Source: Bacteriovoracaceae bacterium (GTDB lineage: Bacteria; Bdellovibrionota; Bacteriovoracia; Bacteriovoracales; Bacteriovoracaceae). From it: DNA of 64,000 bases. Shown piece after piece: positions 44,966 through 61,877 of the stretch. The notes beneath the pieces were generated by a model that was not told the DNA's origin, did no database searches, and worked only from the letters and a program-made list of their open reading frames with translations. A program made the position numbers and the translations under genes. Location of the stretch: NCBI GenBank assembly GCA_020630335.1, contig JAHDBN010000007.1, positions 1 through 64,000 on the forward strand. Direction: 5' to 3'. The stretch's first letter is position 1. Each line of letters starts with the position of its first letter.

Positions 44966-45042
44966 GGTGGGTGTAGTTCAGTTGGTAGAGCAGCGGATTG
45001 TGATTCCGTTTGTCGTGGGTTCGAGCCCCATCATCCACCCCA
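44966..45042 (+). tRNA. tRNA-His (anticodon GTG)
   Basis: A 77-base cloverleaf includes the extra 5' G (G-1) that marks tRNA-His, opposite C73. The acceptor GTGGGTG pairs with CATCCAC. The anticodon loop TTGTGAT carries GTG, the T loop is TTCGAGC, and CCA is encoded. Confidence 0.96.
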
Positions 45043-45060: not shown

Positions 45061-45594
45061 ATGAAAGTAGAAATTCTAAAATACTGTTTATTTTTCAGTT
45101 TTATTGTGATGCCTATTTGTGTTTGGGAACTAAACCAAGACAATATGTATGCATTAGAAGCTATAGAGTATTCGCAAGGCAAAAAGTGTACTGCTATAAA
45201 GTGGAGTTTTATTAAGAAAAAATGCAATGAAAAATTTAAAAAATTAATGATCAAAAAATGTGAGGAAATCACTCATCATAGATTAAAAAATGAGTGTGAT
45301 AAATCAATCAATGAAAAAACAAAAAATTTGAAGGAAGTAGAAAGACAAGATGCATTTTTTAGCTTACTACTTTTTAGCTTTTTTTATTTAATAATTCCTC
45401 TTGCTCTATTTGGGAGTAGGGATAGAATTAAGGGTTTTTTTGATAGATTTTATTCTAAAGATAATATAATGGGCAAGATAGAGAAATCCTTAGATCATTC
45501 TATAGAGTTTATTAACGCTAGGAATATAATTTTTTATTTTATACTGTTGGCTTTGCACTTTTTAATTTTTTCAGCTCTTTTTTTGTTTAAATAG
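45061..45594 (+). CDS. membrane protein of unknown function
   Basis: The ATG at 45061 gives 177 residues. The frame is open to 45010, but that start lies inside tRNA-His and is rejected. There is an N-terminal hydrophobic helix, a Lys-rich extracytoplasmic or cytoplasmic loop with CTAIKWSFIKKKCNEKF and further cysteines, and two more helices (about 103-120 and 155-175). No family is recognised. The 3' end overlaps a truncated receiver ORF on the other strand. Confidence 0.5.
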   Translation: MKVEILKYCLFFSFIVMPICVWELNQDNMYALEAIEYSQGKKCTAIKWSFIKKKCNEKFKKLMIKKCEEITHHRLKNECDKSINEKTKNLKEVERQDAFFSLLLFSFFYLIIPLALFGSRDRIKGFFDRFYSKDNIMGKIEKSLDHSIEFINARNIIFYFILLALHFLIFSALFLFK

Positions 45595-45764
45595 AGCTGA
45601 TTAATTGAATTATTCAAGTTTAACAATTTTAGAGCTACATCTCCATCATTAGCAAAAGTAATGAATAAATTTGAGTGTATCCTTTTTAATAATGCCTCTA
45701 AGAGTTTTTGTGTTCGAGTGCAATCTTCAACTAATAAAACTTTAAAAATAATGTTAGAATTCAT
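45534..45764 (-). pseudogene. truncated response-regulator receiver fragment
   Basis: The first ~50 residues match the start of a receiver domain: VLLVEDCTRTQKLLEALL (acidic pair ED and helix 1) and ITFANDGDVALKLL (strand 2, helix 2). The protein then departs into a basic tail that is antisense to the neighbouring gene. The phosphorylated Asp strand and the rest of the domain are missing, so this is a broken regulator. AGGGGG before the ATG means it could still be translated. Confidence 0.6.
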
Positions 45765-45955
45765 TTTTCCCCCTTGTTTATGAATTTCCTTGTTTGTCTA
45801 TATAGCAAAGAAGATGCCAATACTGAGAAGCGATATAATAAGTGAGTGATCTACTATGATACAAATCAACTGTGCCATAGTGTTTCATTTTGCTACAGTT
45901 TGAGAAAAAAAAATAAGAGGATAGAATTAGAGTAAGATTAAGAGGAGTCTATTAT

Positions 45956-46495
45956 ATGAAGGGAATAGTTTTTACTGAACTTGTAGACATGATGGAAGAT
46001 AAGTTTGGTATAGAAATGGTTAATAAAGTCATATCTCAATCTAATTTAAAATCAGGTGGAGTATATTCAGCAGTTGGAACATATGATTCTGAAGAATTAG
46101 AGAAATTGGTGAAGAGATTATCTGAAGAAACCAAAATACCTGTTCCTGATTTGGTTCATGCATATGGAAAGTACTTTTTTTCTGTTCTTAAAAATAACTA
46201 TAGCAATTTTTTTGATAAGCCTAATTCTTTTGAAGTGTTGAAGAGTATTGATAGTCATATCCATGTGGAGGTAAAAAAACTTTATCCTGACGCAGAACTT
46301 CCAAAGTTTGATCATATAGAAGAAGGTAATGTATTAAAGCTTATTTATCAGTCAGAAAGAGGGTTGTCTCTTTTTGCTTTAGGATTAATAGAAAAGACAA
46401 TAGAACATTTCAAAGAAGATATATCAATAGAACATAATGTTTTATCAGAAAATGGAAACAAGGCTGAGTTTGTTTTAACTAAAAACAATGAATAA
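45956..46495 (+). CDS. H-NOX heme nitric-oxide sensor
   Basis: This 179-residue protein has all H-NOX marks: proximal heme ligand H103 in HIHVEVKKLYP, the conserved Pro in LPKF (116), and the YxSxR heme-propionate motif as YQSER (131-135). Bacterial H-NOX proteins bind NO and control a partner kinase or cyclase. AGAGGAG lies upstream of the ATG. The next gene, a hybrid histidine kinase, starts eight bases before this stop, the standard H-NOX/HnoK pairing. Confidence 0.93.
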   Translation: MKGIVFTELVDMMEDKFGIEMVNKVISQSNLKSGGVYSAVGTYDSEELEKLVKRLSEETKIPVPDLVHAYGKYFFSVLKNNYSNFFDKPNSFEVLKSIDSHIHVEVKKLYPDAELPKFDHIEEGNVLKLIYQSERGLSLFALGLIEKTIEHFKEDISIEHNVLSENGNKAEFVLTKNNE

Positions 46496-47762
46496 TGAAT
46501 ATAAGAAAGCTTATTTAAGAGAAAAACTTGCTCGAAAAGAAGCTGAGAAAATTTTAGAAAAGAAGTCATTGGAACTTTACACTCTCAATCAAGAACTTTT
46601 AGTTGCAAATCAAGGTCTTGAAGAAAAAGTAAAAAAAAGAACTAATGATTTAGAAAAAGCCAAAGATAAAGCAGAAGAGTTAGCTAAAATAAAATCAGAA
46701 TTTCTATCTATGATGAGTCATGAGATGCGAACTCCTTTAAATAGCATTCTTGGTTATACCTACTTATTAGAAGAACAAAATATGAATACTGAATGTGATG
46801 AGTACGTAAGAAAAATTTCATATTCAGGGAAAGTTTTACTTTCAATTATCAATAACGTCCTTGAGCATTCAAGGTTAGAAGGATCAAGGTTTTCATTACA
46901 AGAAGTGACTTTAAATTTGAAAAAAGAATTAGAAGAATTATGTTCAATCTTCAAAGTTGATATTTTAAAGAAAAAATTATCTTACAATGTAATTATAGAT
47001 GAGAACTGTGATGAGATCATTAGAATTGACTTTAAGAAGGTAAAACAAATTTTAATAAATGTTATTGGAAATGCGATTAAGTTTACCAATGCTGGAGAAG
47101 TAAAAGTAAAAGCATCTTATGAAGAAGAGTTTATATCTGTCTCGGTTTGTGATACTGGCAAAGGAATATCTAAAGAGGATTTATCGAAAATTTTTGAACC
47201 TTTTGTTCGATCTTTAAAAGAGGATAACTTCCGATATGAAGGAACAGGTTTAGGACTGTCGATAACTAAAAGGTTAATAGAAGTTCTTGATGGAGAAATA
47301 GAGGTTAAAAGTGAAGAGAATGTTGGAACTTGTTTTTCAATCAGAGTCAGAGCTCCTCTTGCAAGCCATCCTTTAAAGTTAAATGATCCTGAAGGAATAA
47401 TAAAAATAAATAAAAAATTAAATATAATAATAGTTGATGATCACCAAGTAAATGCAATGCTATTATCAAAAATATTATCGAAACAATCTCTTTCTGCCCT
47501 TGTACTAAACCATGGGCTTGATTGCTTAAATGAGTTAAAAGAAAATCCTATGTATGACATAATTTTTATGGACTTGCGAATGCCTGATATTGATGGGATA
47601 GAAACTACTAAAAGAATACGTACAGAAATTCCATCTTTTAAGGGGGAGATAATTTTATTAACTGCAGAAAGTTATGGGCCAGAAGATAATTATCTTAAAT
47701 ATTTTGATGGCCACTTAGGAAAACCTTACTCTATTAAGGATGTTTTAAAATTTTTAAAGTAA
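46488..47762 (+). CDS. H-NOX-associated hybrid histidine kinase
   Basis: This 424-residue protein has an N-terminal coiled coil without a sensor domain (residues 5-70) and HisKA with H78 in MMSHEMRTPLNS. The HATPase_c region has DTGKGIS, FEPF and GTGLGLS, and a C-terminal receiver has its acidic pair in IIVDDHQ and phospho-Asp about 362 in FMDLRMPDIDG. Lack of its own sensor and translational overlap with H-NOX imply that NO-bound H-NOX sets its activity. The output protein is not next door. The 3' end overlaps the convergent kinase gene by nine bases. Confidence 0.92.
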   Translation: MNNEYKKAYLREKLARKEAEKILEKKSLELYTLNQELLVANQGLEEKVKKRTNDLEKAKDKAEELAKIKSEFLSMMSHEMRTPLNSILGYTYLLEEQNMNTECDEYVRKISYSGKVLLSIINNVLEHSRLEGSRFSLQEVTLNLKKELEELCSIFKVDILKKKLSYNVIIDENCDEIIRIDFKKVKQILINVIGNAIKFTNAGEVKVKASYEEEFISVSVCDTGKGISKEDLSKIFEPFVRSLKEDNFRYEGTGLGLSITKRLIEVLDGEIEVKSEENVGTCFSIRVRAPLASHPLKLNDPEGIIKINKKLNIIIVDDHQVNAMLLSKILSKQSLSALVLNHGLDCLNELKENPMYDIIFMDLRMPDIDGIETTKRIRTEIPSFKGEIILLTAESYGPEDNYLKYFDGHLGKPYSIKDVLKFLK

Positions 47763-48809
47763 TGTGAAGGTGAAAGTACTACCTTTGCCAAGTTCTGAGT
47801 CAACTCTGATTTCTCCTCCATGCATTTCTACAATTTTCTTTACAGTGGAAAGACCAATTCCAGAACCCTTTATTAAATTATTTTTTTTCGAAGGAGATCT
47901 TTTGAAAATATTAAAAATAATTTCTCGTTCTTGTGCGGCAATACCAATGCCATTGTCCTGAACAGAAAAATGATATTTCCCCATTCTTTTGACACAATCA
48001 ATTTTAATTTTAGGGATAATATCTTTTTTTGAATATTTCAGTGAATTACTAATCAAGTTTACAAAAATATCAATAAAGTATTCAGGATTTGCATTTATGC
48101 TTTTAGGTATATTTTCTATTGATATTTTTGCCGATTTCATATTTATTTCTTCACTTAGTATATCAAGGGCAATGTTAATACTGTCTTCTGGGTTAACAAC
48201 GGAAAAGTGTAACTCATCTCTTCCTAGTCTAGAGTAAGTTAAAAGATCTTGGACTAAGTTTTTAATGTGCGCACAAGTTTTAATGACTTTATCAATACTT
48301 TCCTCTGCTTCTTTGATTTTTTGATCTTTGACATATTTTTTCGCAAGATCAGAAAAAGTCCAGATATGTCTAATCGGAGACTGTAAGTCGTGAGATGTAA
48401 CATAGGCGAATTGTTCAAGCTCTTTATTTGATCTTAGTAGTTGTAATTGCAATTCTTTTTGTTTGGTAATATCTGTTTGAATTCCTGAGATACGATGTTC
48501 TTCCCTGTGAATTCGACACATAACCCAGAGATATTGATTCTCTTTAAGTAGTATTCGATATTCAATAGTGTGTTTTTCTTTTGAGTTAGATTCGATTGCT
48601 TTTAAAAAAATTGGTTGATCGTCAGGATGAATTTTTTCTAAAAACCAATGTAGCTGATAAGGAACAGTTTGGTTAGCAAGGCCCATCATATCTTTTAAGT
48701 GTGGAGCTAAGAAGAACTCATTTTTATTTTCAGGTTCATATATCCACCAGCCATCAAAGTTAAAATTTTCAAGATTAAAAGTTTTTTTATTATTTTTCAT
48801 AGACATCAT
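47754..48809 (-). CDS. PAS-domain sensor histidine kinase
   Basis: This 351-residue protein has a PAS_3-type domain (about 15-120, with WFLEKIHPDDQPIFLKAI and IQTDITKQKE). HisKA follows with His in YVTSHDLQSPIRHI (about 138), and HATPase_c with VQDNGIGI, NIFKRSP and KGSGIGLSTVKKIV. No membrane helix is seen, so it is cytoplasmic. It overlaps the single receiver gene upstream by up to 20 bases, and starts at 48809, 48806 or 48800 are possible. The pair should form a phosphorelay. Confidence 0.9.
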   Translation of the reverse strand: MMSMKNNKKTFNLENFNFDGWWIYEPENKNEFFLAPHLKDMMGLANQTVPYQLHWFLEKIHPDDQPIFLKAIESNSKEKHTIEYRILLKENQYLWVMCRIHREEHRISGIQTDITKQKELQLQLLRSNKELEQFAYVTSHDLQSPIRHIWTFSDLAKKYVKDQKIKEAEESIDKVIKTCAHIKNLVQDLLTYSRLGRDELHFSVVNPEDSINIALDILSEEINMKSAKISIENIPKSINANPEYFIDIFVNLISNSLKYSKKDIIPKIKIDCVKRMGKYHFSVQDNGIGIAAQEREIIFNIFKRSPSKKNNLIKGSGIGLSTVKKIVEMHGGEIRVDSELGKGSTFTFTLL

Positions 48810-49182
48810 AGATTTTTTTTAAAAGTTTACAGTTATCTAAAAAACTCTCAGGCTTGATTATGTAATCAGAAGCTCCTTCGAGGTAAGCAACTTCTACTTC
48901 TTTTTCATAAAGAGAGCTTGTGAAAAAAACATAAGGAATATTTTTAAACTTGCTTTGTTTGAATTTTTTCATGACATCTATACCATTTGTACCAGGAAGA
49001 TTCATATCAGATAAAATAACATCGAATTGAGCATTAGAATCTTTTAGAAAAGAGTTTATCTGAATTAAAGACGTTATGTAGGTAATATTAATCTCAATAT
49101 TAAAATCATTTATAACCTGATCCAGGGCAAGGTTAAATATCTCAATATCTAGATCATTGTCTTCTATGAGAAGTAGGTTCAT
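48790..49182 (-). CDS. single-domain response regulator (RcpA-type receiver)
   Basis: This 130-residue receiver has the acidic pair in LLIEDNDLD, phospho-Asp in VILSDMNLPGTNG (about 57), Ser/Thr in FFTSS, and Lys in YIIKPES. The DIEIFNLAL helix and lack of an output domain place it with RcpA/CheY-like regulators paired with PAS or phytochrome kinases. The ATG overlaps the GTPase stop by four bases, so GTPase, receiver and kinase form one operon. Confidence 0.9.
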   Translation of the reverse strand: MNLLLIEDNDLDIEIFNLALDQVINDFNIEINITYITSLIQINSFLKDSNAQFDVILSDMNLPGTNGIDVMKKFKQSKFKNIPYVFFTSSLYEKEVEVAYLEGASDYIIKPESFLDNCKLLKKIYDVYEK

Positions 49183-49676
49183 GAAATAAACCTACTTGCC
49201 AGACTTGTAAAAGCAGTAGTAATCCCAATGTCGTTCTTGGCAGATGTTTTGAAAATTAGATCAAAAGATTCCTTGTACCTCTCAAAGGCCTGTTCTTCTT
49301 GCTTCGAAAAGTTTATGAGATCTGTCTTATTTAGTAATAATATTTTCTGAGTAGTAGGGTATTTCTTTTTTACAATATTTTGGTAAAAAGAAATATTTTC
49401 AATACTTTCAGGATTTGAGATATCGCAAACAAAAATAAGTCCATGAGCTGCTCTGTAATATTGTTGAGGAGAAGATATGAGTTCTTTGCCTCCTTGAATA
49501 TCCCAGACAATCATATTTACAGATGTTTCATCAATTTTGAGTTCTCTTTGAAACAATTTCACTCCAATTGTAGCCTTATATGACTCGCTAAATTGATCAT
49601 CCGCAAATCTCATCGAAATGCTAGTCTTGCCGACGCTTTCATCTCCAATTAAGCATATTTTTTTAGATATCTTCAT
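49179..49676 (-). CDS. Ras/Rab-like small GTPase (Rup type)
   Basis: This 165-residue protein has the full Ras-superfamily G motifs: G1 GDESVGKTS (11-19), switch I Thr about 36 in YKATIGVK, G3 WDIQG (58-62), G4 NKTD (116-119) and G5 TSAK (144-147). It has the classic WDxxG, not the altered form of MglA. The residue after WDIQG is Gly63, where Ras/Rab proteins carry the catalytic Gln, so intrinsic hydrolysis should be slow. There is no C-terminal lipidation Cys. Similar bacterial GTPases (Rup families) lie near roadblock-type proteins, as here. Cellular role unknown. Confidence 0.9.
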   Translation of the reverse strand: MKISKKICLIGDESVGKTSISMRFADDQFSESYKATIGVKLFQRELKIDETSVNMIVWDIQGGKELISSPQQYYRAAHGLIFVCDISNPESIENISFYQNIVKKKYPTTQKILLLNKTDLINFSKQEEQAFERYKESFDLIFKTSAKNDIGITTAFTSLASRFIS

Positions 49677-49698
49677 TCGCTAAATGTATACTAAATAG
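49677..49698. promoter_or_regulatory. 22-bp divergent promoter region with overlapping -10 boxes
   Basis: Between the GTPase gene and the divergent gene lies TATAC, readable as TATACT on the plus strand (49687-49692, six bases before GTG 49699). On the minus strand it reads as TACATT or TATACA, six or eight bases before the GTPase ATG. Both genes lack a clear Shine-Dalgarno, so both messages may be leaderless and mutually exclusive. Confidence 0.4.
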
Positions 49699-50154
49699 GT
49701 GAAAATGAAAAAAATTGAACTTTCTAAAGAGTATTTAATACAAAAAATTAATCATAAAAATAAGAATATACTAAGAGCATTGACTGGATTTATTGAGCTA
49801 AACTCTAAATCAGGTAAATTTAAAGATAAAATTCAAGAATGTTTAAATGAACTTAGAAAGGTTAGTTCTTCACTCGATTTCTCTTATTTGGAAAGAAAAT
49901 CATTATCTGAGGAGATTAATAAATTTTGTGAACCCATAAAAAAAGAAAATTATCAAAAACTAGAAAATGAACTGATTTTTAAGAATATAAATACTATGTT
50001 TGATTTAGAATCAACTTTTTTTGAACCATTTATATCTATTTATGAGGACACAGAAGTTTTTTTGTATGAATTATTGATTCTTTTTATTGATGATTATGAT
50101 TTTTTTGCAAAAAAAGAAGGAGATAATTTAAAGGTTCAAATTATTTCAAAGTAA
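49699..50154 (+). CDS. uncharacterised protein with histidine-phosphotransferase-like helices
   Basis: This 151-residue protein has an N-terminal pair of helices (about residues 10-58) holding INHKNKNILRALTGFIEL, which looks like a DHp or Spo0B-like phosphotransfer hairpin with a candidate His at 18. The rest is acidic and lacks ATP-binding motifs. The start is GTG at 49699 or ATG at 49705. It sits inside the minus-strand GTPase cluster in opposite orientation, with its 3' end overlapping the roadblock-like gene by 14 bases. It may connect the kinase to the regulator (inference). Confidence 0.5.
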   Translation: MKMKKIELSKEYLIQKINHKNKNILRALTGFIELNSKSGKFKDKIQECLNELRKVSSSLDFSYLERKSLSEEINKFCEPIKKENYQKLENELIFKNINTMFDLESTFFEPFISIYEDTEVFLYELLILFIDDYDFFAKKEGDNLKVQIISK

Positions 50155-51466
50155 TATATTTTGCAATTTGGTAATGCTTTATTAGTTCTTGAATTTTATC
50201 AATTTCTGATTTTTTAAAATTATAAGTAGATATTTCTATACCTTTAGATGTCACTCTGTAATTTGTTTGCACATTCTTTGAATTTACAAGAAGCAGTATT
50301 GTCTTAACTCTATGCTCAACAGAGTTTATTACAAGTTTCGCTTTTGATGAGGTCATAAATTTAAAATCATCACTCTTAAATTTTGTAGTAAGTAATCTCT
50401 TCGTGATTGCTTGTTGGTTTTTTGTAAAAAATTCTCCTTCAATGTTTACAGCTCCCCAAGGAGATTTAGAAAAACTTAAAGGGTAGCTTTCAGCGAAGTG
50501 TAATTTTTGATAAACATTATTATATTTTTCTTGTACCCAATCCCCCCACACTTTTTTTACAGGGAAAAATAAAAGCAGAAGTAATATTAACCCCATGAAA
50601 GCTTTTTTTGTGAAAGATATTTTTCTGGGAGCTTCCGCGTTTTCTTTTAGCTTTAAAAAAAGCGAAGAGCATTCTTCATGGACATTTGATTGAGGATTAT
50701 CAAACTCAGCTATAAAATTCGGATATTTTGAAAGAATACTTGCTAGGATCTTACGAAACTTTCTCTTGAAGTCTAAACGAATTTTACCACTAGTCACAAT
50801 TGCAAAGTACGAGCTACCACATTGCTCAAGAAGAATTTGAAAGTCTCCATATTCGATTTGATCAATCTTAGTATCTTGGTTATTAATACAGTCTTTAGAA
50901 AAATCTTGTAGGGCTGTAATTAGACCAGCAAACAAATCAGGATTAACTTTTAGCTCATCAGAATCAATTTTTTGATATTTTATTAGTCCTGTTTCTTTTT
51001 CAATGACCATAAAAGCTTTAGGCTTTAAATTTCTAATTTTAGATATGATGAGTTCTTCTTCAGGAACTCTTAGTAGAAAAGATTTGATTTTCAGATTGAT
51101 ACTTTCAATAGGGATTTGATTTTCAATTTTATCATTTATTGAATCCAGGGAATCTGCAAGAGCTTCAGACACATACTTGCTTACTATTGGCCCTAAAATA
51201 GGAAAAAGAGTATCAATAGCTTTCTCTGGATCGTCTTTAACATGTTTCTTTAGTCCGAGTGGTATTAAATTTAAAAGAGCTTTAGTTTCTTCAGATGAAG
51301 GGTTTTCCCTTGCTTCGAGTATGACATTACTAACTGCTTCTTTAATATAAATCTTATCAGAAATATTCTCCTCTATTTTTTCTAAAGAGTTGATTTCTTC
51401 AGATAGAAGATATCCTTTTAGCTCTGAAAGAGCATTAAATGAAGAATGTTCTTCTTGATTCATCAT
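50141..51466 (-). CDS. membrane-anchored roadblock-like protein with FPxxGP domain, GTPase-associated
   Basis: This 441-residue protein has an N-terminal helical part with TLFPILGPIVSKYVSEAL (86-103), known from large GTPase-linked proteins often labelled OmpA family. A roadblock/longin-like alpha/beta region follows (about 148-256, with AFMVIEKETGLI and LFAGLITALQDFSKD), then one membrane helix (288-303) and a ~135-residue outer domain. Roadblock-type domains act as GAPs or scaffolds for small GTPases such as MglA, so it is a candidate partner of the nearby GTPase. It is coupled to the coiled-coil gene by TAATG. Confidence 0.6.
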   Translation of the reverse strand: MMNQEEHSSFNALSELKGYLLSEEINSLEKIEENISDKIYIKEAVSNVILEARENPSSEETKALLNLIPLGLKKHVKDDPEKAIDTLFPILGPIVSKYVSEALADSLDSINDKIENQIPIESINLKIKSFLLRVPEEELIISKIRNLKPKAFMVIEKETGLIKYQKIDSDELKVNPDLFAGLITALQDFSKDCINNQDTKIDQIEYGDFQILLEQCGSSYFAIVTSGKIRLDFKRKFRKILASILSKYPNFIAEFDNPQSNVHEECSSLFLKLKENAEAPRKISFTKKAFMGLILLLLLFFPVKKVWGDWVQEKYNNVYQKLHFAESYPLSFSKSPWGAVNIEGEFFTKNQQAITKRLLTTKFKSDDFKFMTSSKAKLVINSVEHRVKTILLLVNSKNVQTNYRVTSKGIEISTYNFKKSEIDKIQELIKHYQIAKYITLK

Positions 51467-51810
51467 TAGCTCAAAAACTCAGGTTTAGTGTTTTCGTTAC
51501 TTCTTAAAGATTTAGCAATAACTTCAAAGTAATGTGCTAATTCTTCACGATCAGTTTTATTATGATGAAGTTCTGTAAGTGCTATCTTCATCTCTTCTTT
51601 TAAAGATGAGGTGTTTTTTTCTATTAAGTGAGTTAATTCTTTTCTAAGATTTTCTATTTCATCTTGAAGTTCACCTTGGGTTTGCTTCAAGGTTGTTTGG
51701 GATTTATCAAATCTATGATTCACTTCATTGAATGTTTGATCAATTTGATGAAGTTGCTCACCAACGAGCAATTCTCTTATTTTTTCCATTCTTTCGATTT
51801 CGTTCATCAC
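51466..51810 (-). CDS. small coiled-coil protein with LLVGEQ-type N terminus
   Basis: This 114-residue protein starts with ERMEKIRELLVGEQLHQI, followed by a continuous coiled coil to about residue 100. The KIRELLVGEQ lead resembles the N-terminal segment that precedes the FPxxGP domain in single-chain relatives, so here that module seems to be a separate protein. It is translationally coupled to the roadblock-like gene. Binding to it is inference. Confidence 0.55.
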   Translation of the reverse strand: MMNEIERMEKIRELLVGEQLHQIDQTFNEVNHRFDKSQTTLKQTQGELQDEIENLRKELTHLIEKNTSSLKEEMKIALTELHHNKTDREELAHYFEVIAKSLRSNENTKPEFLS

Positions 51811-51830
51811 TATTCCTTTGTGAAAATTAA

Positions 51831-53165
51831 CTACATATGATTTATGTAATTACTTTCGTTTGATTGTATCTTTCTATATATGGTTCTTTTACTAACATCT
51901 AAAGTTTTAGCAGCCTTTACGAGATCACCTTGATGGAAGTTAATTACAAATTTAGTATATTCTTTTTCAATTTCTTTTAGATTAAGATTTGCTTGAAATT
52001 TTGAATGAAAAATATGATTACTTGAGACTTCATTGTTAACAGTAGGTACGATAATTTTGTCATCTATCTTTTCATTCTCACATAAAATTACTGATCTCTC
52101 GATAATATGTTGAAGATCTCTAGTGTTCCCATTGAGCTTTGAATTTAAAAGATTATAAATAGCTGATTCTGTAAAGCCTTTGATATCTTTTTGATATTTT
52201 TTATTGGCAAGGCTTAAAAAGTAATTTGCTTGATCGAGAATATCTTCTTTTCTGTGTCTTAATGGTGGAATGCTAAGAGTGACGATAGATAATTTATAAA
52301 AAAGTTTTTCTAAGAAAAGCCCTTCTCGTACTAAATTACTTATCTCCTTAGAGGAACTTGCAATTAATCTTAGGTTTGGATTTTCACCAAGTTTTTCATA
52401 TTCATTTACAAAGTGATGTTGGATTTCAATTGGTAAATATGAGATTTCGTCAAGATAGATAGTATTCCCTGCATTTCTTGATAAAAGACTTGGGGTAGTC
52501 TGATCTCCAAGAATCTCTTTTTTCATAAGAGAGTGAGGGATTGCTGCACAGTTAATCTGAGTAAAGCTTTGGTTGCTATGATTACTTAGTTTGAAAATAT
52601 ATTTAGCAAGCGAGTCTTTTCCTGAACCCTTTTCGCCAAGAATAAGAGCAGGGACGTTGGTTGATGCAACTTTCTCCGCTGTGTATATGACTTTATTCAT
52701 ATAAGGGTTTTGTGATTTTAAAAAAGTGAAGTCGTTGTTATTGAGTTCTATCTTCTTTTTAAGCTGAGTATTTTCAACTTTTAAGTTTCCATGTTGCATA
52801 GCTTTTTCTATAGAAACTAAGAGTTTGTTTGTATCTGAAAAGTTTTTCTCTATATAATCAAAAGCTCCAAGTCTAATTACTTCAACTGCCTGAGATAAAT
52901 CTGACTCGGAAGTAAAGATTAAGATAGGAGCTTGAGTATACTCCTGAATAGATTTTAAAAGATCGTTACCTTTGATTTCTGGTAGGTTGTAATCAACTAA
53001 GACAATATCAAGAGAATGGAGGCCATTCTTCATATCAGTTAGTAATTTCTTGGGGCACGAATACTTTATTACTTCGAATTGACGAGAACTTAGTACTTCT
53101 GAGTAAAACTCTAAGGCTAATCTTTCATCATCAATAATAAGAGCTTTCTTTGAAATTTGAGTCAT
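51831..53165 (-). CDS. NtrC-like response regulator lacking the GAFTGA loop
   Basis: Domains in order are a receiver (acidic pair IIDDERLA, phospho-Asp in VLVDYNLPEIKG), an AAA+ domain and a Fis-type HTH (AAKTLDVSKRTIYRKI). Walker A is LGEKGSGKDSLAK and Walker B TIYLDEISYLP. Between NCAAIPHSLMKKEILG and Walker B, the ~15 residues that normally hold GAFTGA are shortened to DQTTPSLLSRNAG. The usual Arg in DLYYRL is Lys (LFYKL). It is therefore unlikely to activate sigma54 in the standard way. ATG 53165 is preferred over GTG 53174, which forms part of AGGTG. Confidence 0.85.
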   Translation of the reverse strand: MTQISKKALIIDDERLALEFYSEVLSSRQFEVIKYSCPKKLLTDMKNGLHSLDIVLVDYNLPEIKGNDLLKSIQEYTQAPILIFTSESDLSQAVEVIRLGAFDYIEKNFSDTNKLLVSIEKAMQHGNLKVENTQLKKKIELNNNDFTFLKSQNPYMNKVIYTAEKVASTNVPALILGEKGSGKDSLAKYIFKLSNHSNQSFTQINCAAIPHSLMKKEILGDQTTPSLLSRNAGNTIYLDEISYLPIEIQHHFVNEYEKLGENPNLRLIASSSKEISNLVREGLFLEKLFYKLSIVTLSIPPLRHRKEDILDQANYFLSLANKKYQKDIKGFTESAIYNLLNSKLNGNTRDLQHIIERSVILCENEKIDDKIIVPTVNNEVSSNHIFHSKFQANLNLKEIEKEYTKFVINFHQGDLVKAAKTLDVSKRTIYRKIQSNESNYINHM

Positions 53166-53225
53166 ATGTAACACCTGTTGTTAAAGCTGACTCAATAATG
53201 TCATAAATGACTCTCAAGAGTCAAT

Positions 53226-53250
53226 AAAAAACCCTGCTATTCAGCAGGGT
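53226..53250 (-). terminator. rho-independent terminator of aquaporin gene
   Basis: On the minus strand ACCCTGCT-GAAT-AGCAGGGT forms a perfect 8-bp GC-rich stem followed by TTTTT. It lies about 32 bases after the aquaporin stop. Confidence 0.88.
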
Positions 53251-53281
53251 CTAAAATTTCTCTAAATGCGTTGCGTTGTAA

Positions 53282-54341: not shown

Positions 54342-57300
54342 TTGAAGGTACTAATCTTATCACTGTTATTCATTATTAGTTGTGGCCAACGCTCAGAGTT
54401 TCTAGGGCCTTATGATCCAGTTGAATATGATGATTCGTTAATAGAATTATCAGCCTCAACAGTTGTTCCTTTAACAGGTAAATGTGAGCCAGGTGCAAAT
54501 TTAAGTTTTTCTGGCCCTGTTAGTGGTTCTCCTATTAGTGCAGTCTGTGATCAACTTGGAATGTTTTCAACTACAGTTATACTTACAGCTCCTGATGGAT
54601 TGAAATCTATTTTAGTAACACAAAATAATCCTAATGGAGTCGTTTCTACTGATGATTATGATGTTGTTCTTGATACAGGTCCACCAATAGCAGTAAATGA
54701 CTCAACACCAGCAGCTACTTATGGACAATCAGTTGTTCCTTATACTGTTTTATCTAATGATAGTGACCTTGGTTCAGGAATTGATCCTTCAACTTTATCT
54801 ATTATAACTCCTGCACCAAGTGCAGATGGAACGTGTAGTTTAGGTTTTGGTGCTACAACTTTTATTCAATTTGCACCAACTCCTGGTTTTTCTGGGAGTT
54901 CAAGTTGCTCTTATGAAATTTGTGATGCTCTTGCTCAATGTTCAAGCGCAGTAGTTACTTTTAATGTTGCTTCAGGAAGTCCAATCGAAGCGAATGATGA
55001 TGTGATTTTAGGAACACAAAACTTTGATGCTTCCTTAAACGTTCTTCAGAATGATTCTGATCCTGATGGAATTCAGGATATTGATTTATCTTCTTTAAGT
55101 ATTATTACTAATGCAAACCCTTCAACAGAAGGGACATGTGCTATAGGACCTGGGCCAAGTAATATAACATTTAGTCCAAATTTAAACTATTTCGGGACAG
55201 CTATTTGCGTTTATCAGATTTGTGATTTTGAAGGAAACTGTGATTCAGCGAACGCATCCTATATTATCCCAGATATAACTGTTCCCGTACCAACTAAAGA
55301 TACCGCTCTTATTGCTTCAGGAGGGCCAACAGCTACTATAAACGTAGTGAATGATCCAGTAGCAGCAGTAACGCCAGGTTGGTCTAGTGGATTAGATACT
55401 GACCCTGCTGGAAACTTAGATCTTACAAGTGTAACTTCATTAGCTTCAGTAGGAGGAACATGCCAAGTTGTTCCAGTAGGATCTCCTAATATACAATTTG
55501 TACCTAATGTTGGTTTTGTTGGTTTAGGAAGTTGTACTTATCAAATTTGTGATACATCAGGAAATTGTGCTCAAAGTATTTTTGAAATTACAGTTATTGA
55601 TGGACAAGCTCCTCTAGCTGCAGATGATCTTGCAAGTACTGATACAAATGTCGCAACATCACCAGTAAATGTTTCTTTAAATGATATTGATCCAGAAAAT
55701 AGACTGGATACTAGTTCTATAACTTTAACTGCAACTCCAGCTGTAGGAGGAACGTGTGCAATTAGCCCATCAGTTCCTTTTATTGTTTTTACTCCAAGTA
55801 CAAACTTTGTAGGAAATGGAAGTTGTGAATACCAGATTTGTGATTTAGATGCTAACTGCTCAACAGCTTTATTAAAAGTTCAAGTTTTTGATACCATTGC
55901 TCCTGTTGCTTTAGATGATCTTGCATCAACAAATCAAAATACACCTGTGACCCATGATGTCGTTACAAACGGTACGCCAGCAACGAGTGATGATGATGTA
56001 GATAATGAAGGAAACTTAGATCCTACATCTATTAGTTTAACTGGAAACTCATTTGGTGGAACGTGTTCAATACACCCAGCTACAGCAGGAAGTGTTTCCA
56101 CGGCAGCTCCAAGTGAGCTTTTATTTGATCCTGATTTAAACTTTGCAGGTAGTGGTTATTGTGAATACCGAATATGTGATACTTTTTCTAACTGTTCAGT
56201 TGCGACAATGAATGTCACTGTTTCAGATATCACTCCTCCTGAAGTAGTGATTCTAGATCAAATTTCAATAAGTGATAGTAATGACATGACTTCAAATTTA
56301 CCGGCAGTGTTTCAAGTAACTTTTAATGAACCAATTGATCCTGCAACTTTTACAAGTGCAGATATAAAGCTTTTTGATAGCTCTGATCCTGCTCATTCAA
56401 GTGGATTTCCATATGTTAATGGAGGTTTTGTTTCTATTTTAAATGGTGGAGACAATACAAATTTTACAGTTCAAGTAAGTGCAGTAACTTCAGATGGAGT
56501 TATTCAAATAGATGTTCCTCTGGGAGGAGTAAATGATGCGAATGGATTAGCAACAATTGCTGATGGTTCAGTGACTGCTACAACTTTAAATAATGATATT
56601 ATTTATGATGGAACAGCTCCAGCTGCACCAGTATTTGTAGCTCCATTTTTCACTCAAGATTCAACTCCAGATATTGATATTTCATGCGAGCCTGGTTCTT
56701 TAATTCAAATTAGTACCACAGGTATTTCTCCTGATCCATACCCAGCTGTAGGCGTTTTATGTCCTGCTTCAGGAAGTGTTACTTTGCCAGCGGTTCCTTT
56801 GCCTGGTGGTGGATTAGATGGAACGTATCCAATAACTCCTATTGCAAGTGATACAGTAGGAAATCAAACTCCAGGTGCTCAACAAAACTTAGTCGTTGAT
56901 ACAGTTGGACCAAATATTATTCTTGTAGAACAGTTAGCGGGACAGTCTGATCCTAATAACTCTACTAACCAAACTCCTATCTTTTTTAAGATTGAGTTTG
57001 ATGAAAAAATAGATCCTTCATCTTTTGATGGATCAGACATTTTAAATACTGGGCCTGGTGGAGGAATTTGGACAATAGCAAATAGTGGAGATGATAAAAC
57101 ATTTACAGCTTCAGTTGTTGCCTTAACTGCTCAAGGTTGTATAAGACCAGAAGTATTGGCAGCTGGAATTTTAGATCCAGCAGCAAACGCTAACACTGTT
57201 TATACGAATGCAAATACAGGTAGTACGGTAGCTGATTGTCAGGATGCTGATGAGATGTATTATGATGCTATTGCTCCAGGACAACCAGTTATCGCTGGAC

Positions 57301-60300
57301 CTTTATATACTCAAGACCCAACACCAGATATGATTGTGAATTGTGATCCGGGAGCTGATATTCAAGTTTCAATTCCTGCTATGACACCTGATCCTTACCC
57401 AGCGGTAGGAATAGTTTGTCCAGCAAGTGGTGTAGTCACAGTACCTAACGTTCCTCTTCCAGGTGGAGCTGATGGAGTTTATCCAATCACTCCTATAGCA
57501 ACAGATGCAGTTGGAAACCAGAATATAGGGATTGTTTTTAATTTAACTTTAGATAGAGTTGCACCAAGTGTTGCTTCTATTAATCAACTAGGAGCTGATC
57601 CGACAGGTTCACTTCCAATATTTTTTGAAGTTGTTTTCTCTGAACCAATTGATGCGACAACTTTTACTGGTTCAACTATTTCAAATGTTAATGCAACTCC
57701 TGCAGCAGGAGGAGTGTGGACAGTTACCAATAGTGGAGATGATCAAACTTTTACAATTTCAGTAAGTGCACTGACTGGTTCAGGATTTGTTGAACCATCA
57801 ATCCAAGTAGCACCTGCTGTTATTCAAGATAAAGCAGCTAATGATTTAGTAGCAAGTACTCCAACAGGAGACGGGGTTGTTGAATATGATAATATTCCAC
57901 CAGGAATACCTGTTGTAACAGGGCCTGCATTTACAAATGTAGCAAGTACCAATGTATTAGTAGCTTGTGACATAGGTTCAGAAATATCTTTAGCTATCTC
58001 TGGATACCCATCAAGTCCAGTAAGTGCTGGAACTTGTACAGCAAGTCCATTGAGTGTGCCACTTACTTTTCCTGCAGTTGGAGTTTATACAGTAACACCT
58101 ACAGCGAGTGATGCTGTTGGGAATTCAATCTCTGGTGCCGCTTTTGATGTAACTTATGATAATGCAGGTCCTAATATTATTAGTCTTCAGAGATTAACAA
58201 GTCAGCCTTCTAGTACAAATGCATTACCAATCTTTTTTGAAGTAATTTTTGATGAAGCAATTGATCCAACAACTTTTACTCTTGCTAATATAAATGATTC
58301 GGCAAGTACAGCTGGAAGTGGTGTATGGAGTATTGCAAATAGTGGTGATAATACAACTTTTACAATTTCAGTGAATGGTTTATCTGCGGATGGAACTGTT
58401 GAACCGATGATAGCAGGAGCAATTGCTGACCCTGCTGGAAATACACTGGGAACAGTAACTGTTGGACCTAATACAAATGTTGTTAATTATGATGGAACAG
58501 CTCCAGGAACGCCTGTTGTTATTGATCCAGCATATACAAATTCTTTAACTCCTACTCTTACAATTAATTGTGATATTGGATCTATCGTTCAAGCTAAGAT
58601 TGCAGGATATAACGCAGGAGTTGAATTTCCAGCTCTTGGAACTGCACCAACTTGTTCAACAGGCAGTGTGACTATTCCTTTACCTTCAGCATTGCCAACA
58701 CCTGATACAAGTTATTCAGTGACGGCCATAGCAAGTGATAGTTTTGGAAATCAAAGTTTTAGTGCTCCGTTTACAATGGTTCATGATCAAACTCCATTAA
58801 GTATTGCATCTATTACAAATATCTCACCAAGTGCAACGCCTTTTAAAACAAATACTCAGCCTATTATTTTTGAGATTGTTTTTTCAGAGCCAATAAATGC
58901 AACAACTTTTAGTGCTTCAGCTGGAGATATTACTAATAATGAGACAACAAATCCTTTAGGTGGAGGGTCTTGGACAATAGTAGATTCAGGTGATGGACAA
59001 ACTTTTACATTAAGTTTAAATGCGATAACTAGTGATGGGATTATTACTCCATTTTTAGCAGCAGGTGTAGTAGATGACTTAGCGGGAAATACTAATCTTG
59101 TTCAAACTGTTTTTGCATCAGCTGAGTACGATGGAACGCCACCAAGTGTACCGGTTGTGATTAGTCCTGACTTTACCGCTGATACAACACCTGATATTCA
59201 GGTGAATTGTGAAGTAGGAAGTACTGTTCAGGTAAGTATTCCTGGTTATACTCCAGATCCATTCCCAGCAGTAGCTCAAGCTTGTACAAGTTCACCTGTA
59301 ACAATTACTTTAACAACACCTTTGAGTGATGGAACTTATCCAGTAACTCCTATTTCTACAGATGATGTAGGAAATACAACTCTAGGTGCTGCCTATGACA
59401 TGGTTATTGATACAGCAAAACCTACAATTCTTTCTATTAATAAATTGGCAACACAGGCAAGCCCAACAAACTCTGAACCTGTCTTTTTTGAAGTTCAGTT
59501 CAGCGAAGAAATTAATCCTAGTACTTTTGTAGGATCAGATGTTGATGATAATGATAATGATCCTAGTGTAACGACAGGTGTATGGAGTGTAACGAATACT
59601 GGTGATAATATTAACTTCATTATAGCTGCTTCAGCAGTGGCAGGTGATGGTTATATTAGACCAAGGTTATTAGCAGCTGCGGTAGAAGATCCAACTGGAA
59701 ACACAAGTGATCCTTTCCCGGCAACAGCAACTCCTATACCAAATACGGATGCTGTTTACTTTGATAACCTTGCTCCAACTTCTCCTGAAATTTTATCTTG
59801 GACTTGGACTTTAGTTAATCCATTAGATGGATCTATCTCTCAGGTAGGCACTCCACAAATTGATTTAACAGGTGCAGCTGTAGAAGATGGTGGAAGTGTT
59901 CAGATTTATGATGATAATACATGTGTAAGCTCACAAGGTTCACCACAAACGATTGCAAGTGGAGGAGTTTCTGTTACAGATATTAGTTACTTAACTGATG
60001 GTTCAGCTGATGGACAAAAAGTATATTATGTTCGTGTAATGGATGCGATTGGAAATGTAAGTACATGTACTCCAATAGGTTTAGATTATACTTTAGATAC
60101 AATCGCTCCAAGTGTTGCTATCAATCAAGCTTCAACTCAATTAGATCCAGCTAAAGCATTACCTATCGTTTACGATGTTGTGTTCAGTGAGCCTATTGAT
60201 CCCGCAACTTTTACGAATGTTGATATTTTAAATGGAGCAGGAGCAGTAGTAACTTTCTCTACTATAACAATTAATAATAGTGGTGATGATACAAACTTCT

Positions 60301-61877
60301 CTGTTCTTCTTACAGATCCAGATGTTGGCGGGCTAGTCGAATTAGAAATACCAGCAGCAGCTGTTCAAGATTTTGCAGGGAATAATAGTATAGCAAGTAC
60401 GAGTACAGATAATATTGTAGACTTTGCATGTTTACCTCCTGATCAAATTACTGATTTATATACAGGAACACCTTCTCAAACGTCTGTTGATTTATTTTGG
60501 AATCATCCTTACGACAATGGTTGTGTGATCTTAGATTATTTTATGGAGTATAAAAAAATCAGTGATTCTTCATGGACACCGGTTGTAGATGGAACTTCTA
60601 CCGATCCACTTTATCTTGTTACTGGTTTAGATTTTAATGAATCATATGAATTTAGAGTAAGAGCTTACAATGGTTTATATGGGCCTTGGTCTAATATTGA
60701 TACTGCTAATACAAAGCCTAATCTTCCATTCTTTGATGACAATGAATATATTCTTATTAATTTATCTGAAGCAATTGATTCTCAATGTGTTGCCTTAGAA
60801 GATGGAACAGATTTATTTTTACACTCAAGTGTCACTGGACCGGGAACACTTATTGCAAGTTTAAATCAAGGACAAACATTTAGATTTTGTAGTGATTATA
60901 CTCCACCTGTAGCAGCAGGTTGTTTTGATGAGAGAATACTAAAGTCTACGGCACCAGTCTTTTGTGCTGGTAGAATAGGTACAGCAAATAATCATTCTGG
61001 AAACAATGGAAATCCACCATGGGTTTCTCCATTATGGGCAGAAAAAGAATTACTTTATAATAGTGCAAGATCAAATACTAAAAAGATTTTTGTATGGCCA
61101 TTTGAAAGTGGTATAGATGTTTTTGTAAGAGAAGGAGCAACTACTCATGCATCAGCACTAGGAGTAACTGCAAACGTACCATTTGTTTTAACTTTTAGTG
61201 ATCCAAGTGATGGTTCTTATAGAATCGAATCGAACGGATTTGTTGCGGCAACAACTGTAGGACCTGCCAATGGTTCGAATTGTTGTTATGATGATATGCC
61301 AGCACTTCCTAAGAAGAATAGACTATTAGGATATCCATCAAACTCAGGGTATTTAGCTTCGGTTTCTCCAGGAAATACAACTACAATCCATCATTCTAAT
61401 GGAGTTACTCAAACAGCAACAGTAAGCGATAATGCTTATACGGTCGTGACAGCACAAGGTTCACCAACATCTTTATTTAGAAGCGAAGCAGTATATGTTG
61501 AAGGTATTGATGGGCTTACTGGAAACAATACAGCTGATAGTAATGGATTTAACTCAGCACCATTTGCACCAATTTCTTTAATGCAAAGAAGATACGGTAT
61601 AAACGTTTTAGCGGACTATGTTGCATTTGCCAGTACCACTGATGCAAATATCAAAATGATTAGACCAGATGGGACAGTAGCAGTTTTTCAATTAGCAAGA
61701 ACTGGAACAGGGCCATTCTCATTACAAAGCCCTTATAAGTATTACCTTGAAAATGTTCCAGCAGGAACAGTCTTTGAGGGAATAGGAATTACGGATAGAT
61801 TTTCAGTTTGGTATCAACCAGACACTAACACTGCAGCAGGACGCTATGATGAAACAATTATTTATGGATTTAAGTAA
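54342..61877 (+). CDS. giant Ig-repeat lipoprotein, probable surface adhesin
   Basis: This 2511-residue protein starts at TTG (TTGGAG eight bases upstream) with lipobox FIISC (Cys14). Residues ~114-630 hold five cadherin-like/Big_9 units, each with GTC and C-x-Y-x-ICD-xxxx-C. Residues ~630-2027 hold seven SwmB-like Ig units (NSGDxxxFTxS, EPIDPxTFT), alternating with a TPDxxxxCxxGS unit. A fibronectin type III domain follows (about 2030-2125), then a ~385-residue unique C terminus. The layout fits a long surface-anchored adhesin. The next genes are an OmpA barrel (32-base overlap) and a LysM-like protein. Ligand and role are unknown. Confidence 0.85.
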   Translation: MKVLILSLLFIISCGQRSEFLGPYDPVEYDDSLIELSASTVVPLTGKCEPGANLSFSGPVSGSPISAVCDQLGMFSTTVILTAPDGLKSILVTQNNPNGVVSTDDYDVVLDTGPPIAVNDSTPAATYGQSVVPYTVLSNDSDLGSGIDPSTLSIITPAPSADGTCSLGFGATTFIQFAPTPGFSGSSSCSYEICDALAQCSSAVVTFNVASGSPIEANDDVILGTQNFDASLNVLQNDSDPDGIQDIDLSSLSIITNANPSTEGTCAIGPGPSNITFSPNLNYFGTAICVYQICDFEGNCDSANASYIIPDITVPVPTKDTALIASGGPTATINVVNDPVAAVTPGWSSGLDTDPAGNLDLTSVTSLASVGGTCQVVPVGSPNIQFVPNVGFVGLGSCTYQICDTSGNCAQSIFEITVIDGQAPLAADDLASTDTNVATSPVNVSLNDIDPENRLDTSSITLTATPAVGGTCAISPSVPFIVFTPSTNFVGNGSCEYQICDLDANCSTALLKVQVFDTIAPVALDDLASTNQNTPVTHDVVTNGTPATSDDDVDNEGNLDPTSISLTGNSFGGTCSIHPATAGSVSTAAPSELLFDPDLNFAGSGYCEYRICDTFSNCSVATMNVTVSDITPPEVVILDQISISDSNDMTSNLPAVFQVTFNEPIDPATFTSADIKLFDSSDPAHSSGFPYVNGGFVSILNGGDNTNFTVQVSAVTSDGVIQIDVPLGGVNDANGLATIADGSVTATTLNNDIIYDGTAPAAPVFVAPFFTQDSTPDIDISCEPGSLIQISTTGISPDPYPAVGVLCPASGSVTLPAVPLPGGGLDGTYPITPIASDTVGNQTPGAQQNLVVDTVGPNIILVEQLAGQSDPNNSTNQTPIFFKIEFDEKIDPSSFDGSDILNTGPGGGIWTIANSGDDKTFTASVVALTAQGCIRPEVLAAGILDPAANANTVYTNANTGSTVADCQDADEMYYDAIAPGQPVIAGPLYTQDPTPDMIVNCDPGADIQVSIPAMTPDPYPAVGIVCPASGVVTVPNVPLPGGADGVYPITPIATDAVGNQNIGIVFNLTLDRVAPSVASINQLGADPTGSLPIFFEVVFSEPIDATTFTGSTISNVNATPAAGGVWTVTNSGDDQTFTISVSALTGSGFVEPSIQVAPAVIQDKAANDLVASTPTGDGVVEYDNIPPGIPVVTGPAFTNVASTNVLVACDIGSEISLAISGYPSSPVSAGTCTASPLSVPLTFPAVGVYTVTPTASDAVGNSISGAAFDVTYDNAGPNIISLQRLTSQPSSTNALPIFFEVIFDEAIDPTTFTLANINDSASTAGSGVWSIANSGDNTTFTISVNGLSADGTVEPMIAGAIADPAGNTLGTVTVGPNTNVVNYDGTAPGTPVVIDPAYTNSLTPTLTINCDIGSIVQAKIAGYNAGVEFPALGTAPTCSTGSVTIPLPSALPTPDTSYSVTAIASDSFGNQSFSAPFTMVHDQTPLSIASITNISPSATPFKTNTQPIIFEIVFSEPINATTFSASAGDITNNETTNPLGGGSWTIVDSGDGQTFTLSLNAITSDGIITPFLAAGVVDDLAGNTNLVQTVFASAEYDGTPPSVPVVISPDFTADTTPDIQVNCEVGSTVQVSIPGYTPDPFPAVAQACTSSPVTITLTTPLSDGTYPVTPISTDDVGNTTLGAAYDMVIDTAKPTILSINKLATQASPTNSEPVFFEVQFSEEINPSTFVGSDVDDNDNDPSVTTGVWSVTNTGDNINFIIAASAVAGDGYIRPRLLAAAVEDPTGNTSDPFPATATPIPNTDAVYFDNLAPTSPEILSWTWTLVNPLDGSISQVGTPQIDLTGAAVEDGGSVQIYDDNTCVSSQGSPQTIASGGVSVTDISYLTDGSADGQKVYYVRVMDAIGNVSTCTPIGLDYTLDTIAPSVAINQASTQLDPAKALPIVYDVVFSEPIDPATFTNVDILNGAGAVVTFSTITINNSGDDTNFSVLLTDPDVGGLVELEIPAAAVQDFAGNNSIASTSTDNIVDFACLPPDQITDLYTGTPSQTSVDLFWNHPYDNGCVILDYFMEYKKISDSSWTPVVDGTSTDPLYLVTGLDFNESYEFRVRAYNGLYGPWSNIDTANTKPNLPFFDDNEYILINLSEAIDSQCVALEDGTDLFLHSSVTGPGTLIASLNQGQTFRFCSDYTPPVAAGCFDERILKSTAPVFCAGRIGTANNHSGNNGNPPWVSPLWAEKELLYNSARSNTKKIFVWPFESGIDVFVREGATTHASALGVTANVPFVLTFSDPSDGSYRIESNGFVAATTVGPANGSNCCYDDMPALPKKNRLLGYPSNSGYLASVSPGNTTTIHHSNGVTQTATVSDNAYTVVTAQGSPTSLFRSEAVYVEGIDGLTGNNTADSNGFNSAPFAPISLMQRRYGINVLADYVAFASTTDANIKMIRPDGTVAVFQLARTGTGPFSLQSPYKYYLENVPAGTVFEGIGITDRFSVWYQPDTNTAAGRYDETIIYGFK
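54681..60425 (+). repeat. two classes of Ig-like tandem repeats in giant lipoprotein
   Basis: Five units of ~300 bp (starting about 54681, 54980, 55288, 55609, 55900) share four cysteines each. Then seven composite units of about 605-685 bp (starting about 56235, 56900, 57560, 58165, 58793, 59418, 60102) each pair a SwmB-like domain with a short TPDI-type domain. The last unit is incomplete and runs into the fibronectin domain. Confidence 0.7.

Follow-up and report, generated by a model that had tools for sequence, protein, structure and literature searches.

The DNA analysed here, a stretch of 64,000 nucleotides referred to as the window, carries at positions 47754-53174 a block of seven genes, six on the minus strand and one on the plus strand, that very probably belongs to the Group 1 Rup systems. 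These systems were predicted in 2014 by Wuichet and Sogaard-Andersen and consist of a GTPase, a coiled-coil protein, a membrane protein and an output (PMC4316618). The preliminary description of this DNA had set the locus apart from MglA/MglB modules and did not recognise the Rup kind. A reading in which no known kind fits is not supported, since the trio next to a signalling output has the arrangement of Group 1 Rup, and a GTPase and a kinase occur together in conservons as well. The locus is of the same kind as the Group 1 Rup systems of that paper and is not categorically new. Two features go beyond the published prediction, i.e. a predicted roadblock/longin fold for the unknown domain of the membrane protein and an output that in this genus looks like a split phosphorelay. 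The reading that we favour, at a probability of roughly 0.55, combines a GTPase system of Group 1 Rup with a split-phosphorelay output and the full mechanism given below, in which the core trio, motifs, gene order and predicted fold come from the tools, and the direction of signalling and the protein contacts are those that we infer.

Gene layout and the Rab-like GTPase

All genes of the block were intact at the positions previously claimed for them. The minus strand encodes an AAA+ response regulator (51831-53174 from a GTG at 53174, or starting with an ATG at 53165; Pfam and alignment, conserved in the related genomes G001-G003), a coiled-coil protein of 114 aa (51466-51810; homologue comparison), a membrane protein of 441 aa (50141-51466; AF2, Foldseek, hydropathy and homologues), a Rab-like small GTPase of the Group 1 Rup type (49179-49676; Pfam, alignment and tree), a single-domain receiver (48790-49182; Pfam and alignment of acceptor residues) and a cytosolic PAS-HisKA-HATPase_c histidine kinase (47754-48809; Pfam and alignment of the boxes). 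A candidate phosphotransferase, here called the reversed gene, lies on the plus strand (49699 or 49705 to 50154, the ATG at 49705 being the likely start; alignment, profile and model). In the sequence, the regulator and coiled-coil genes are separated by 20 bp, while the coiled-coil and membrane-protein genes overlap by 1 bp, the GTPase and receiver genes by 4 bp and the receiver and PAS kinase genes by 20 bp. The reversed gene shares a convergent (tail-to-tail) overlap of 14 bp with the membrane-protein gene, so that transcription continuing out of the membrane-protein unit would yield RNA antisense to it, and a divergent gap of 22-28 bp separates its start from that of the GTPase gene. Each of the three genomes in which this arrangement is visible whole has retained it. 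The block is two minus-strand units split by the reversed gene, not a single operon, and an intrinsic terminator on the minus strand (53229-53252) forms the boundary to the aquaporin gene. What had been described as an operon-like block held as a conserved module, but not as one operon.

The GTPase matched the Pfam Ras family (4e-31) and showed the motifs G1 GDESVGKT, G2 TIG, G3 WDIQGG, G4 NKTD and G5 TSAK, of which G3 is devoid of the catalytic Gln. This residue was absent in 17 of 20 aligned Rup GTPases and kept in three cyanobacterial ones; Group 1 Rup GTPases were described as usually lacking it (PMC4316618). The best solved relatives of the window GTPase were Rab1 proteins. It is the only single-domain Ras-family match of its genome by Pfam, the two other matches being located in LepA-like and IF2-like proteins. 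In the GTPase tree, it grouped with its own genus and then with G087, far from MglA (100% support), and a canonical MglA is encoded elsewhere in the genome. The earlier designation as a Rab-like GTPase different from MglA was supported by the Ras match, the distance in the tree and the separate MglA. Rab1B was placed among the Rup sequences on long branches, and therefore no deeper evolutionary claim is made.

The tree and the separate genomic MglA also led to the rejection of an MglA/MglB module as a candidate. A polarity module of this type, serving motility or predation, could be suggested by the roadblock-like partner, the Bdellovibrionota host and the neighbouring receiver; it is nevertheless highly improbable, as the GTPase is remote from MglA and its partner, a membrane protein, does not match MglB significantly in sequence. 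The block resembles MglA/MglB/RomR of Myxococcus and Bdellovibrio in having a small GTPase, a partner of predicted roadblock fold and a receiver protein, but the GTPase is of another family, the partner is a TM protein, the genes are clustered with a kinase and the genome's own MglA lies elsewhere. Similarly, the actinobacterial conservons (CvnA-D) unite a kinase, a roadblock protein and a small GTPase within one operon, whereas CvnD is of the MglA family and conservons are devoid of the coiled-coil/TM-roadblock protein, the receiver and the AAA+ regulator.

The membrane protein and the coiled-coil protein

No Pfam match was obtained for the 441-aa membrane protein. Its AF2 model (mean pLDDT 68) showed helices up to residue 142, followed by a bb-a-bbb-a domain at about residues 148-247, and hydropathy indicated one TM helix at about 289-307, which is long in the model. 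The periplasmic part is small and could be divided into two alpha/beta units that are BON-like by predicted topology; a profile search for BON homology was not significant. Foldseek analysis against the PDB yielded AP sigma chains, TRAPP subunits, Mon1-Ccz1, Ragulator, a Streptomyces roadblock protein and MglB. The roadblock/longin matches had E values of 1e-4 to 2e-3 and a target-normalised TM score of up to 0.68, and the leading fold matches were nearly all roadblock/longin proteins, many of which, such as TRAPP, Mon1-Ccz1, Ragulator and MglB, are GTPase regulators. At the level of sequence, one homologue matched Robl_LC7 (E 0.0014, below the Pfam curated cut-off); nothing significant for roadblock was obtained in a Pfam scan of 25 members, which gave almost no matches, or in a profile search of the PDB, and no Robl_LC7 match was found in the window genome. 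Residues 148-247 or so are predicted to adopt a roadblock/longin fold. The preliminary description had set beforehand that its reading of the module would be refuted if structure prediction of 50141-51466 gave no such fold; the predicted model showed the fold.

At the time of the 2014 description, no Rup GTPase had been characterised, the regulator was unknown and MglB partners for Rup proteins were not expected; the membrane protein was reported to contain a domain of unknown function, often with a TM helix and often with a C-terminal OmpA domain (PMC4316618). Within a limited set of open-access papers, no subsequent study of Group 1 Rup came up. The fold predicted for this domain is the main new inference of the present analysis, and its presence in the recurring membrane partner of Rup would name a concrete candidate for a GEF or GAP. 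The likeness to TRAPP, Mon1-Ccz1 and Ragulator lies in the predicted fold and in the proposed role as a platform for a Rab/Rag-like GTPase; the window protein differs in being a single-chain bacterial TM protein with no detectable sequence relation to them.

The coiled-coil protein carries the N-terminal motif IRELLVGEQ, common to the Rup coiled-coil proteins of Cyanobacteria, and a similar motif was present in all 24 aligned proteins from Bdellovibrionota and Cyanobacteria. A similar start motif, [IL][RK]xLLxxxE, could also be observed in both the coiled-coil and the membrane proteins, with a clear score in a minority of homologues, which might be a hint of a shared feature.

Conservation of the block and its place among Group 1 Rup loci

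The relatives used for comparison were MAGs of the Bacteriovoracaceae, a predatory family; G001-G003 and the window represent four genomes of one genus, and G087 stands for a different one. The order aquaporin, AAA+ regulator, coiled-coil protein, membrane protein, reversed gene, GTPase, receiver and PAS kinase was conserved in the window, G002 and G003, and G001 contained the complete block spread over two contigs. Protein identity to the window was mostly 50-70% within the genus, with 32-35% for the reversed gene. Substitutions between G002 and G003 were mostly synonymous, pN being far below pS in every compared gene. The sole breaks in the block were the contig split in G001 and an in-frame TAA in the regulator of G003. 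This single stop codon is located between the receiver and the AAA+ part (L013 about 6608), and both halves are conserved. The genes beyond the kinase varied, i.e. an H-NOX gene and a hybrid kinase in the window and a transporter in G002 and G003. In G087 the same kinds of gene are rearranged to the order HK, REC-GTPase, NtrC-type RR, HK core, CC, MEM, with receiver and GTPase still adjacent.

Among the genomes sampled, 10 of 369 from Bdellovibrionota and 12 of 98 from Cyanobacteria encoded the membrane protein. Coiled-coil and membrane protein accompanied the GTPase at every Bdellovibrionota GTPase locus. At the 13 cyanobacterial membrane-protein loci, the coiled-coil gene and the GTPase gene were each adjacent in 11; an HK, REC-HK or GGDEF-EAL lay beside the GTPase in 7 of the 11 loci with an adjacent GTPase gene, and four cyanobacterial GTPase loci showed no adjacent output module. 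A fused REC-HK followed the GTPase in two cyanobacteria, and the kinases of the Rup loci were not all orthologous. Conservation of neighbours, proposed in the preliminary description as a check, proved to be beyond chance, with the block order kept in the genus and the core trio recurring in Bdellovibrionota and Cyanobacteria. Two independent neighbouring systems, a Rup trio and a two-component set without cross-talk, would be consistent with the trios without an adjacent kinase in G260/G261 and some Cyanobacteria. We regard this as quite unlikely, as the interleaved, overlapping order was held across diverged genomes while the genes past the kinase differ, and as kinases also follow Rup GTPases in unrelated genomes. 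Moreover, kinases are scarce in the window genome; 12 HATPase_c matches were found in 2.36 Mb, so that about 3% of random 5.4-kb stretches would be expected to hold one.

Group 1 Rup membership is well supported by several features of the window, i.e. a Ras-superfamily GTPase with eukaryote-like G1-G5 motifs and distinct from MglA, the missing catalytic Gln in G3, a neighbouring cytoplasmic coiled-coil protein, a neighbouring membrane protein in which the conserved domain precedes a TM helix, and an output that comes immediately after the GTPase and comprises the receiver and the PAS kinase. The window differs in that no OmpA domain was matched by Pfam in the membrane protein, this domain being frequent in Rup but not constant; it was detected in the membrane proteins of G241 and Crocosphaera, and weakly in that of G087. 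A further difference is that PAS kinase, free receiver, His-protein and AAA+ regulator replace one kinase or GGDEF-EAL. The output gene of Group 1 Rup was described as a kinase or c-di-GMP enzyme (HK or GGDEF-EAL), and a figure shows a Gln that is invariant in the N-terminal part of these output proteins (PMC4316618); no shared motif among output proteins was found in our comparison.

Two minor observations concern related loci. In G261, a 184-aa protein without a Pfam match (L041 7481-8035), partial in G260, directly follows the Rup GTPase and might be an alternative output. An orphan pair of a coiled-coil protein and a soluble 250-aa version of the membrane protein without TM helix could be observed in G003 (L014 7376-8571) and G002 (L015 7820-8988), with no GTPase nearby; this pair is absent from the window genome.

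Putative phosphorelay components and the proposed signal path

Pfam assigned a receiver, an AAA+ domain of the NtrC type (Sigma54_activat) and a Fis-like HTH (HTH_8) to the regulator. Alignment revealed a deletion of nine residues at the sigma-54 contact loop (GAFTGA) in the window, G001 and G002, the loop being present as GSFTGA in G087; as a result of this loss, sigma-54 activation by the regulator is unlikely. It was rejected as a candidate function, since sigma-54-like sites also occurred at chance level (27 versus 20 expected). The kinase contains PAS_3, HisKA and HATPase_c domains (Pfam) with intact H, N, G1 and G2 boxes, and in the receiver (Response_reg) the acceptor Asp, the Thr/Ser and the Lys are conserved.

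The protein of the reversed gene contains an HKxKN motif with His19, its sole invariant histidine, kept in all four genomes of the genus. It is modelled as a DHp-like helical hairpin with a C-terminal stub without ATP-binding G1/G2 boxes, but the model is poor (pLDDT 46). Weak profile matches to HisKA_2 (E 0.008) and HisKA (E 0.06) aligned His19 with the phospho-His, and nothing significant was obtained in a PDB sequence search or, by profile, against the kinase core of G087. The phosphotransfer-like helices previously noted for this gene agree with this alignment, and the protein is a candidate phosphotransferase by one motif and the weak profile match. An antikinase or a decaying kinase remnant that no longer carries phosphate is a real, if lesser, possibility. 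Its weak homology evidence and its rate of change, the fastest in the block (G002 and G003 share 60% identity here versus 73-88% for the other genes), point in this direction, whereas pN (0.27) well below pS (0.86) in the same comparison, and an HKxKN motif and histidine that do not vary among the four genomes although the remaining sequence has drifted, argue against it.

Taken together, the output in this genus looks like a split phosphorelay comprising PAS kinase, free receiver, HPt-like small protein and AAA+ regulator. A relay at this position is also found in relatives, three Bdellovibrionota carrying Hpt and hybrid HK where the window has the split parts; only the split form is peculiar to the window. 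Like Spo0F-Spo0B-Spo0A, the set comprises a kinase, a free receiver, a putative DHp-type protein without ATP site and a DNA-binding regulator, but the genes are unrelated and clustered, the regulator is of the AAA+ type and phosphotransfer is putative here.

In the favoured mechanism, the membrane protein would sense the envelope via its small periplasmic domain, and its cytoplasmic roadblock/longin domain would form, with the coiled-coil protein, a docking platform and regulator (GEF or GAP) for the GTPase. Because the GTPase has no catalytic Gln of its own, it would stay GTP-bound until this partner acts, and its nucleotide state would tune the kinase and receiver whose genes come immediately after its own. 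Phosphate would leave the PAS kinase and reach the AAA+ regulator by way of the free receiver and then the small histidine protein, in a Spo0F-Spo0B-Spo0A manner, and this regulator, without its sigma-54 loop, would act as a sigma-54-independent DNA-binding regulator. The mutual control of phosphorelay and GTPase state suggested in the preliminary description is likewise hypothetical. The phosphorelay variant would give a measurable output, i.e. transcription.

The reverse direction, with kinase and receiver as input and GTPase as output, appears rather unlikely. The phosphorylated receiver would then activate or recruit the GTPase on the platform and the AAA+ regulator would serve for feedback only. 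The receiver gene directly follows the GTPase gene, usually overlapping or nearly abutting, in all five Bacteriovoracaceae loci, and RomR and MglA (PMC3441718) offer a precedent; most other Rup loci, however, have an enzyme output (kinase or GGDEF-EAL) and no free receiver, and the genus retains a DNA-binding regulator within the block.

For Rup GTPases in general, we tentatively put forward control by a membrane-anchored roadblock/longin regulator, a single-chain bacterial counterpart of the TRAPP, Mon1-Ccz1 and Ragulator platforms. In this genus the switch would gate a Spo0-like four-step phosphorelay and so connect a bacterial Rab-like switch directly to transcription. If this applies, fold-based, membrane-anchored control of Rab-like switches would also be bacterial, with a bearing on the origin of the eukaryotic Rab and Rag systems.

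Some further features were observed in the flanking region. An H-NOX gene (HNOB, 1.9e-41) overlaps a gene for a hybrid histidine kinase (45956-47762, plus strand), convergent with the PAS kinase gene by 9 bp; the two are absent at this position in relatives and may together sense NO/O2, with potential input into the same relay. A short, truncated receiver-like ORF of 76 aa lies at 45534-45819 on the minus strand; the sequence TGGCATcttctTTGCT immediately upstream of it, at 45804-45819, resembles a sigma-54 site with one mismatch. A tRNA gene (Rfam) is located at 44967-45039 on the plus strand, and an ORF listed from 45010 begins within it. On the other side of the block, a probably secreted protein of 2511 aa with many repeated segments is encoded at 54342-61877 on the plus strand, and a similar long gene lies beside the block in G001 (L011 4376-11917).
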